Below are positions 33,781-37,181 of a DNA stretch of 43,631 nt, piece after piece. Below the pieces are notes generated by a model. The model was not told the origin of the DNA and did no database searches. It saw nothing but the letters and a program-made list of their open reading frames with translations. The position numbers were made by a program, and so were the translations under genes. Source of the DNA: Chloroflexota bacterium (GTDB lineage Bacteria; Chloroflexota; UBA4733); NCBI GenBank assembly GCA_023381555.1, contig JAMCRV010000093.1, positions 1 through 43,631 of the forward strand, written 5' to 3'. Position 1 is the first letter of the stretch, and each line of letters opens with the position of its first letter.

Positions 33781-34221
33781 CTACCCGCTCACGCGGGTGA
33801 TGAAATTGCCCTGCTGGCGTCCGAGGGCCTGCTCGTCCACGGCGCGAAGCGGCGGCCGTCCCGCCGCGGCCAGGTCACGCTCGCGGCCAGACAGGGCGGC
33901 GAGCACCTCGGCCCGCAGGTTCCCGACGAGCGCGTTGTCCGCGCTCACCGTGCCCTCCCCAACCGTGGAACGCTCACTGCGATACCTCCTCGCACCTGCA
34001 GACCGCTTCCGGTCGGACGCGCCGTCGGGAGACTCGGGCAGGACCCCGAGGTCGACTGCCGCCTGATGGGTCATGCGGGCCAGCTGTCCTGCACCAATCA
34101 TCGCCACCTTGGCAGACGCTGTCCGACGGAAGCTCGCTCGAGATCTCGCCCGTGAGACCAGGTCGCTCTGGCTGTCCGGTACAGAATGCGGGACATGTCC
34201 CGGATCGCGGAGCATGGTCAT
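33781..34221 (-). pseudogene. Chimeric remnant: purK-like start joined to a CpaF/TadA-like N-terminus
   Basis: One open frame of 146 codons whose ATG overlaps the icd stop (ATGA). The first part contains KVAMIGAGQLARMTHQAAVDLGV, the nucleotide-loop opening of PurK (N5-carboxyaminoimidazole ribonucleotide synthase). It breaks off at once into LPESPDGASDRKRS. The later part (VSADNALVGNLRAEVLAAL ... AAAGRPPLRAVDEQAL) resembles the N-terminus of actinobacterial-type CpaF/TadA pilus ATPases. It has its own GGGGAGG ribosome site before a GTG, and is cut off by the internal IS end at 33812. The PurK match is fairly clear; the CpaF match is tentative. Neither part could be functional. Confidence 0.55.
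33796..33812 (+). repeat. Internal copy of the right IS end
   Basis: GGTGATGAAATTGCCCT, identical over 17 bp to 36820-36836 and in the same orientation. With the left end at 33722 it outlines a 91-bp IS remnant with both ends. Confidence 0.75.
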
Positions 34222-35675
34222 TGCCCCTGACCGAGGGAAAATCCGGCCTTGCCGTCGAAGGTGAACAGTCCTTCGGTCTTGATGAAGGGGAGCCCGGCGG
34301 CAGCCAGACGGCTCAGCAGATCAATGACCTGTTCGTATGGCACGGGGCGGTCGGGTGAGTGACCCTGGAAGCGGCAGCGCCAGTGATCCACGCAGAAGGT
34401 TTCGGGAATACCACCCGGGTACACCTTCTGGCCCCTGTTAGTGATCATCACGAGCCTCAGATCCGGCCCAGCATTCGCTTCGAGAGCCTTGGCCAGCTCT
34501 TCGACCGACGCCTGCGAGTCGATAAACACGTCGATCCCAACCAATTCCTTTCGAGCACGTGAACGCTCCGAGACATGGACGGCAATCCTCTCTGAGTTGG
34601 ACGGATATCTGGCGGCCTTGAGCGTCTTCGGCATCTCTCCCAAGCGGGCGATGACCGCGTCTGCAAACTCGGCAGTGCCGACCCTTGCTCTGGAGACTGC
34701 CGGATCGTAGATGTCGTAGGTGTGCATGCCGTCCTCGATCGTGCGAAGCCAGGCGTTGTGGACCCGCGCAGCCGCCTCGGCTTGGCCGATATGGACGAGC
34801 ATCTGAACCGCCCCGAGTAGCAGGCCGGAGGGGTTGGCTACGTTCTGACCGGCTCGCCGAGGTGCAGAACCGTGGATCGCCTCGAACATGGCGATCTCGC
34901 CACCGATGTTCGCACTGCCGGCAAGCCCGACTGAGCCTGCGATCTGCGCTGCTACGTCGGAGAGGATGTCCCCGTAGAGGTTCGGCAGGACGATGACGTC
35001 GAAGGCCTCAGGGGTGTCGGCAAGCTTGGCAGCACCGATGTCTACGATCCAATGCTCGGACTCGAGGTCCGGGTACTCGGAAGCCACCTCGTCGAAGACC
35101 CGGTGGAATAGGCCGTCGGTCATCTTCATGATGTTGTCCTTGGTAAAGCAGGTCACCTTGGACCGTCCATAGCGGCGCGCGTACTCAAAGGCATACCTGA
35201 CGACCCGCTCGGTCCCCGGGCGGGTGATGAGCTTGAGGCACTGGGTGACGTCTTCGGTTTGGCGGTGCTCGATCCCGCCGTAGAGGTCCTCCTCGTTCTC
35301 GCGGATGATCACTACGTCCATGTCGGGATGCTTGGTCGCGACGAATGGGGAGTACGACGGGCAGGGCCTCACGTTGGCGAAGAGACCGAACGCCTTACGG
35401 ATAGTCACGTTCAGGCTCTTGAACCCTCCACCCTGGGGGGTCGTGATGGGAGCTTTCAGGAACACTTTGGTGCGCCGCAAGGACTCCCAGGCTTCCGGGT
35501 CGATGCCTGCGGTGTTCCCCTGCGCGTAGACCGCCTCGCCGATACGGATTGTCTCCAGATCGAGATCAGCGCCTCCGGCTGTGATGATCCGAAGGGTGGC
35601 CTCCATGATCTCCGGGCCGATGCCGTCGCCGTATGCGACGGTGATCGGAACCGGCTCAATGGCATCAATGCTCAT
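34218..35675 (-). CDS. icd: NADP-type isocitrate dehydrogenase, long Thermus-type form
   Basis: 485 residues from ATG 35675, which has AAGGAG 6 nt before; the track TTG at 35711 is less likely. The catalytic core (about 1-330) has VAYGDGIGPEIM, the substrate loop SLNVTIRKAFGLFANVRP, IIRENEEDLYGGIEH, KDNIMKMTDGLF, DVIVLPNLYGDILSD and FEAIHGSAPRRAGQNVANPSG. A C-terminal extra domain (about 370-485) with LVGIDVFIDS, LRLVMITNRGQKVYPGG, CVDHWRCRF and FTFDGKAGFSLGQGQ marks the long type known from Thermus thermophilus and Rickettsia. It oxidises isocitrate to 2-oxoglutarate. The gene is intact inside an ISAs1-bounded segment. Confidence 0.93.
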   Translation of the reverse strand: MSIDAIEPVPITVAYGDGIGPEIMEATLRIITAGGADLDLETIRIGEAVYAQGNTAGIDPEAWESLRRTKVFLKAPITTPQGGGFKSLNVTIRKAFGLFANVRPCPSYSPFVATKHPDMDVVIIRENEEDLYGGIEHRQTEDVTQCLKLITRPGTERVVRYAFEYARRYGRSKVTCFTKDNIMKMTDGLFHRVFDEVASEYPDLESEHWIVDIGAAKLADTPEAFDVIVLPNLYGDILSDVAAQIAGSVGLAGSANIGGEIAMFEAIHGSAPRRAGQNVANPSGLLLGAVQMLVHIGQAEAAARVHNAWLRTIEDGMHTYDIYDPAVSRARVGTAEFADAVIARLGEMPKTLKAARYPSNSERIAVHVSERSRARKELVGIDVFIDSQASVEELAKALEANAGPDLRLVMITNRGQKVYPGGIPETFCVDHWRCRFQGHSPDRPVPYEQVIDLLSRLAAAGLPFIKTEGLFTFDGKAGFSLGQGQ

Positions 35676-35707
35676 CTTCTGCTCCTTGGTCATAGTCGGG
35701 TGTGCAC

Positions 35708-36106
35708 TCAATGGCGGTCATCACGAAGCAGGCAGAGGGGAAAAGCTGGGATGCCCTCGAACTCTTCCAACTGGGCCAGCCGTGACCATCGCAGTGAAGC
35801 AGGTAAGCGGGTCAGGAGCTCCCAGATCGCTTCGTCGGTCATGTGGACGTCGTCGCGGCGGGCAGCGAAGCGCAACTGCAGCGCGTCGTCTTCTCTAGCG
35901 CGAAACGCTGTTTCGTCTAGCCCCTCTTCCAGGGCGGCTACTAGGCGCAGGTGGGTGGCGCTTGCCGCAGAGCGGGCCATTGCCAGCGCCTGGCCCTCGC
36001 CGCGTGGTCGTTCCATCCACAGGTCGATCCCCACTACTCGCCGCCGCCGACATGCTGCCCGCGTCGAGGCGCTCAGTTGGGTGCTGGGTCCGTCGAGGTT
36101 GTCCAT
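35708..36106 (-). CDS. Stand-alone homolog of the isocitrate dehydrogenase C-terminal domain
   Basis: About 132 residues from ATG 36106 with GGAG 6 nt upstream; longer starts up to 36166 exist. By eye it lines up with the last 115 or so residues of the adjacent icd product: RRVVGIDLWMER vs KELVGIDVFIDS, THLRLV vs PDLRLV, DALQLRF vs DHWRCRF, then exactly 21 residues to ELLTRL vs DLLSRL, and EEFEGIPAFPL vs FTFDGKAGFSL. No catalytic domain is attached. It ends 32 nt before icd on the same strand, so the two are probably co-transcribed. It could be a partner, regulator or decaying duplicate; function is unknown. Its 5' region abuts the IS remnant. Confidence 0.6.
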   Translation of the reverse strand: MDNLDGPSTQLSASTRAACRRRRVVGIDLWMERPRGEGQALAMARSAASATHLRLVAALEEGLDETAFRAREDDALQLRFAARRDDVHMTDEAIWELLTRLPASLRWSRLAQLEEFEGIPAFPLCLLRDDRH

Positions 36107-36153
36107 CGTGCGCTCCATCACATACGAACTGTAACTCAGCATATCGGGTTCGC

Positions 36154-36898: not shown

Positions 36899-36972
36899 GC
36901 CCCCATCGTCTAGCGGCCTAGGACATCACCCTTTCAAGGTGGAGATCGCGGGTTCGAATCCCGCTGGGGGTA
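36899..36972 (+). tRNA. tRNA-Glu (anticodon TTC)
   Basis: 74 nt including the discriminator A. Acceptor GCCCCCA pairs with TGGGGGT, with a G-T pair at the end. The D-arm region is TCGTCTAGCGGCCTAGGA. The anticodon arm is TCACC-CTTTCAA-GGTGG with anticodon TTC. The T-arm is CGCGG-GTTCGAAT-CCCGC. No CCA is encoded. The 209 nt after it (to 37181) show no gene, terminator or second tRNA that I can support. Confidence 0.95.
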
Positions 36973-37181
36973 CTGCCACGCCGGTCAAGTGGTTGCCCTC
37001 TTCTGGAGGCACAGAGGTCCAGTCCCGCCTTCTGAGGGGGGCGGATCACTTGGTTGGCGCTCTAGAAACAGGAAACAGACGGTACCGGAGAGCACGCCTG
37101 AAGACCTGGCGCAGATTCGCGGTAACGAAGATGCTCGCCAGTCTGAGACGAACGGGCTAGTCCAGCGCTAGGCTCGTGAGT

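Follow-up and report, generated by a model that had tools for sequence, protein, structure and literature searches.

Why should the gene for an isocitrate dehydrogenase (IDH) that carries its own extra C-terminal domain be preceded by a small separate gene for what looks like the same domain? The question is raised by an ORF directly upstream of icd in the stretch of DNA analysed here (43,631 nucleotides, hereafter the window; Table 1), which an earlier note had read as a copy of the C-terminal domain of the icd product. On its profile matches, the neighbouring enzyme is a subfamily IV, Rickettsia-type IDH: it matched PF00180 (1e-91) and PF18324 (2.5e-40) in Pfam, passed the NCBIfam cut-offs of both NF006673 (768.9 bits; cut-off 509) and TIGR02924 (707.6 bits; cut-off 561), and matched the Thermus thermophilus enzyme (PDB 2D1C) at E=1e-118. 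The ORF holds a PF18324 domain only and, as the note had said, lacks a catalytic core (PF00180). Its stop codon lies 32 nt from the ATG of icd on the same strand, from which we infer that the two genes are probably read from one transcript, in agreement with the co-transcription proposed earlier.

Table 1. Features of the stand-alone gene and the neighbouring icd in the window
Feature	Position	Strand	Remarks
icd, full-length subfamily IV (Rickettsia-type) isocitrate dehydrogenase	34218..35675	-	485 aa, with its own C-terminal PF18324; assigned by profiles (see text)
AAGGAG, Shine-Dalgarno of icd	35682..35687	-	from the sequence; before ATG 35675
Stand-alone PF18324 (IDH C-terminal / second-clasp domain) gene	35708..36106	-	132 aa; domain residues 22-123
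1-nt deletion in the window copy	35740..35750 (near 35745)	-	relative to L004, L005 and L032; DNA and protein alignments
GGAG, Shine-Dalgarno of the stand-alone gene	36113..36116	-	6 nt 5' of the ATG
TATGCT, candidate -10 hexamer of the stand-alone gene	36138..36143	-	~31 bases 5' of the start codon; by comparison

We confirmed that the ORF encodes, as a protein of its own, a homologue of the second clasp domain, the extra C-terminal domain of subfamily IV IDH. The 132-aa form of the window protein matched PF18324 at E=2e-5 with 25.1 bits against a cut-off of 25, which is marginal for this copy alone; a longer form of the same ORF scored 24.5 bits, and the homologues at loci L004 and L032, taken singly, also stayed under the cut-off. 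Across the family, all 15 intact members matched PF18324 at E<1 (best, 6.8e-7). When the window protein was compared with the whole PDB, the sole match up to E=10 was Thermus IDH (2D1C residues 383-490; E=3.7e-4), and a profile built from the 15 intact relatives found the same region (residues 385-490; E=7e-9) with the next match at 0.24. Profile-profile comparison of the stand-alone proteins with fused domains returned a probability of 98.9% (E=1.2e-17). BLASTP aligned the ORF with the domain of the neighbouring icd product at 29% identity (E=1e-5), and in the multiple alignment the two were 18% identical.

The predicted fold points the same way. AlphaFold2 gave a mean pLDDT of 75.5, with most of the core above 80, from an alignment of stand-alone sequences only, and 79.8 when fused domains were added to the alignment; both models have the order beta-alpha-beta-beta-alpha-beta. 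In Foldseek, 2D1C was the single match below 1e-3 for either model, and the stand-alone-only model matched its C-terminal domain at E=1e-7 with a probability of 1.00. The weak further matches include ACT-type regulatory domains, among them the yeast acetohydroxyacid synthase (AHAS) complex (6u9d; E about 0.03). No ACT family appeared among the Pfam matches of any of the 15 members, and the beta-alpha-beta-beta-alpha-beta order is common to many unrelated ferredoxin-like folds, so that it lends weak support to an ACT likeness.

The gene family is real and under purifying selection. Between the window gene and its L004 homologue, dN/dS was 0.25-0.28 (bootstrap 0.17-0.45) in the proposed frame and 0.9 and 1.3 in the other two frames. 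Ratios of 0.20-0.40 were found among four intact members, 0.065 for the pair L095/L096, 0.19 for L102/L103 and 0.63 for L032/L093; the ratios for more distant pairs are rough, since synonymous sites there are near saturation. The corresponding values for icd were 0.02-0.10, and the stand-alone gene thus evolves faster than the enzyme, yet is constrained. Chance resemblance or a wrong reading frame was ruled out by the profile, fold and codon statistics.

The fused domains share a near-invariant RGxxV[YW]P motif and a QG tail, with R, G and V present in 100% of 35 fused domains. In the stand-alone proteins this motif is not conserved and the QG tail is absent. They have invariant residues of their own (R21, T51, H52, R83, H88, D91, A93, E96, W107, E114 and E115), of which T51, H52, H88, E96, E114 and E115 are invariant polar residues not found in fused domains. 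In a domain tree that took in the three stand-alone sequences known at that stage, these grouped in a single clade (100/100) whose stem measured 3.24 substitutions per site, and the neighbouring enzymes' own domains fell in another clade. Grouping the stand-alones with their neighbours' domains was marginally rejected by the AU test (p-AU 0.04), their exact placement being unsure given the long branches. The tree and the AU test together disfavour a recent tandem duplication of the end of the neighbouring icd. Because the ORF lacks RGxxV[YW]P, we consider it a diverged relative rather than a plain copy, which corrects the earlier note; the homology that the note proposed stands. The 18% identity and the separate clade show that it does not derive recently from the neighbouring enzyme's domain.

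The same observations bear on the suggestion that the free protein is an exchangeable copy that takes turns with the built-in domain in the IDH clasp. Such an exchange would fit the shared fold and the apparent operon with the full enzyme. It sits poorly with the separate, long-stemmed clade, the marginal rejection by the AU test and the loss of the motif and tail of the fused domains, and we consider it very improbable.

How widely, then, is the gene pair found? A pattern scan of 85,462 genomes yielded two relatives; whole-genome searches added those of genomes G236 and G711 and then a cluster of roughly twelve in the order to which G711 belongs, part of the same phylum as L004 (depositor label Actinobacteria). 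For most genomes in the order-wide search no more than ten candidates were scored, which makes the member counts minimum values. The stand-alone gene lies directly upstream of icd at 14 loci, namely the window and 13 others from at least two phyla (L004, L005, L032, L073, L093-L097, L100, L102, L103 and L105); at L100 the icd ATG overlaps the stop codon of the stand-alone gene (ATGA). A 41-bit remnant precedes icd at L106. Profile matches were thus found and the pair is conserved in other genomes, two of the points on which the earlier note had staked its reading. At L102 and L103 the stand-alone proteins have a ~30-residue insertion in the middle loop, and the icd reading frame runs upstream, out of frame, over the end of the stand-alone gene. 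Other candidates were set aside: the Ktedonobacter-like matches at L035 and L054, which are an overlapping MarR-like gene, were treated as chance, as was L052, which comes from the same genus and matches the same part of the query; L049 was a chance match; and at L050 icd is cut by the contig end.

Among 397 genomes of one order, the same type of icd was found in 14 of the 16 genomes (at least 16) with a stand-alone gene vs. 22 of the 381 others (Fisher p=2e-14, a test that assumes independent genomes, an assumption that does not hold here). In G1004, one of the two stand-alone genomes in which the icd type was not scored, the start of an icd lies at a contig end. Many of the close icd relatives lack a stand-alone gene; the closest Chloroflexota icd genes, for instance, have none upstream. 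Mapped onto the icd tree, presence of the gene is clustered but requires seven changes, which implies that loss or transfer has been common. In G236, the pair lies beside a murE that shares 88% identity with a congener's murE, which marks the contig as native; this genome also has an ordinary fused IDH elsewhere, and the pair was not found in the incomplete assemblies of its congeners G443 and G444. These observations suggest that G236 acquired the pair as a unit. A plasmid-borne gene was considered and rejected, as there was no plasmid match.

Not every copy adjoins icd. Intact copies distant from it occur after ilvD (L098, codirectional), divergent from ilvD (L099) and, at L101, close to a Sua5-like gene; the copy that adjoins ilvD divergently at L104 is fragmentary. 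The copies at L098, L099 and L104 all lie around 1500-1900, and the ilvD genes beside them, for dihydroxy-acid dehydratase, were recognised by eye from the translations. Together with the -10-like and leader sequences kept even at L098 and L101, the six invariant polar residues, which look like a specialised site, and the ACT-type domains among the weak next Foldseek matches, these loci could be read to mean that an IDH tail gave rise to an independent ACT-like metabolite sensor or regulator with a non-IDH target, for example branched-chain amino-acid synthesis (ilvD), its linkage to icd reflecting shared control of carbon flow instead of physical contact. We find this doubtful: 14 loci lie directly upstream of icd against three or four elsewhere, the three genomes with intact non-adjacent copies (G1186, G1202 and G1250) carry the same icd type on other contigs, and no single alternative partner is conserved.

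We next consider expression of the window gene. Relatives begin at the equivalent of the ATG at 36106, which by this comparison is the start, and most have GGAG or AGGAG before it. Where the window has TATGCT, most relatives have TATGAT, TATACT or TATAAT, which makes it the probable -10 hexamer; a generic promoter scan returned no promoter at its threshold before the stand-alone gene, so that this assignment is by comparison alone. The conserved leader of the family (at window 36107-36150, minus strand, and the matching place in relatives) consists of TATAnTGA, then A[GA]TTCG, then GGAGC, and occurs also at some loci where the stand-alone gene is distant from icd; in addition to a plain promoter, it might include an operator or RNA element. 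Directly upstream of the gene is a DDE transposase remnant (PF01609; 36331-36819), which suggests rearrangement at this edge of the operon. Nearby are a tRNA-Glu (TTC) gene on the plus strand (36899-36973) and, on the minus strand, a gene pair for a YoeB-like toxin and a Phd/YefM antitoxin (PF06769 and PF02604; 37182-37857).

Within the window's own lineage the stand-alone gene appears to be decaying. The 1-nt deletion in the window copy turns the conserved C-terminal ..FxPLPxL into ..FPLCLLRDDRH. The nearest relative (L005:4001-4450), whose icd is 98% identical to the window's, has a 4-nt insertion that shifts the frame and an in-frame TGA, and is probably a pseudogene as read from a low-coverage metagenome-assembled genome (about 3x). 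The gene is also reduced in G1043. The deletion and the broken L005 copy make the window a poor representative of the family. One might go further and take the window ORF itself for a decaying relic with little or no present function, as the lost PLPxL tail, the frameshift and stop at L005 beside a nearly unchanged icd, a window/L005 dN/dS of 0.75 (bootstrap 0.38-1.8) and 6 nonsynonymous vs. 4 synonymous changes on the window branch, too few to decide, would allow. Still, the frame is open across the whole domain, the ribosome-binding site and -10-like sequence are retained, the family overall is under purifying selection, and the L005 sequence has the low coverage mentioned above. We therefore judge the relic explanation unlikely.

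What would a free clasp domain do? Thermus IDH has a larger clasp-like structure built by its extra C-terminal region, and clasp regions have roles in oligomer formation and in signalling (PMC3521221). A clasp domain that is free, under selection and encoded in front of icd is best read as a trans-acting subunit, and its homology, fold, purifying selection, conserved gene pairing and co-occurrence with the icd type make service to IDH in trans, as a clasp or regulatory subunit, the most likely role, which we infer with moderate confidence. Counting against an IDH subunit are the intact copies distant from icd, the many icd relatives that lack the gene, the broken L005 copy and the reduced gene in G1043, as well as the missing RGxxVYP motif and QG tail, which in fused domains may contact the enzyme. 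As we picture the trans-acting subunit, the free domain would be made from the same transcript as IDH, bind the enzyme in trans, with the clasp layer of the built-in C-terminal domains as the likeliest site, and alter its oligomer state or activity as a small regulatory or structural subunit. It might act on metabolite binding, like the ACT-type small subunits of AHAS, and would be specialised for this role rather than interchangeable with the built-in domain. A more tentative extension, possible but speculative, is a two-component bacterial IDH in which a full-length subfamily IV catalytic chain is joined by a separately encoded, specialised clasp subunit that senses a metabolite via the family's own T-H, H and E-E residues and controls entry into the oxidative branch of the TCA cycle, the two genes moving together between phyla.

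The domain and the enzyme are known; the separate-gene form and the ORF-icd pair were not found described. A literature search, with most subscription papers outside its scope, found no description of a PF18324 domain as a separate gene or of such an IDH gene pair, and no statement of what the second clasp domain is for, though this domain sets subfamily IV IDH apart. The gene pair points to a subunit that helps or controls an enzyme of central metabolism and of which we found no description. A free domain under selection beside IDH also offers a direct experiment, in which the domain is supplied or removed and IDH is measured; should it bind, we would know of no earlier case of a small regulatory subunit acting on a bacterial IDH at the isocitrate branch point.

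Among known systems, the closest is the C-terminal domain of T. thermophilus IDH, which is homologous over the full length and is the top match in both sequence and structure. The 2D1C domain and the stand-alones have in common the VGxD strand, LRL, LRF, the I-LL helix and the W--L-KL-EFDG strand. In Thermus, however, the domain is covalently part of a 495-residue enzyme, whereas in the window family it is a free protein that has its own invariant residues and neither the RGxxVYP motif nor the QG tail. The neighbouring icd belongs with subfamily IV (TIGR02924, NF006673) and has its own PF18324, from which the stand-alone gene was not recently derived. The ACT-domain small subunits, such as the AHAS regulatory subunit, offer a possible analogy as small beta-alpha-beta-beta-alpha-beta proteins encoded beside a catalytic partner, but no sequence homology to them was detected. 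Finally, the subfamily IV core resembles the heteromeric NAD-IDHs of subfamily III (PMC3521221). In mitochondrial IDH3, catalysis and regulation fall to different polypeptides, which clasp domains hold together; in contrast to the lone clasp domain of the window family, its regulatory subunits are full-length IDH paralogues.
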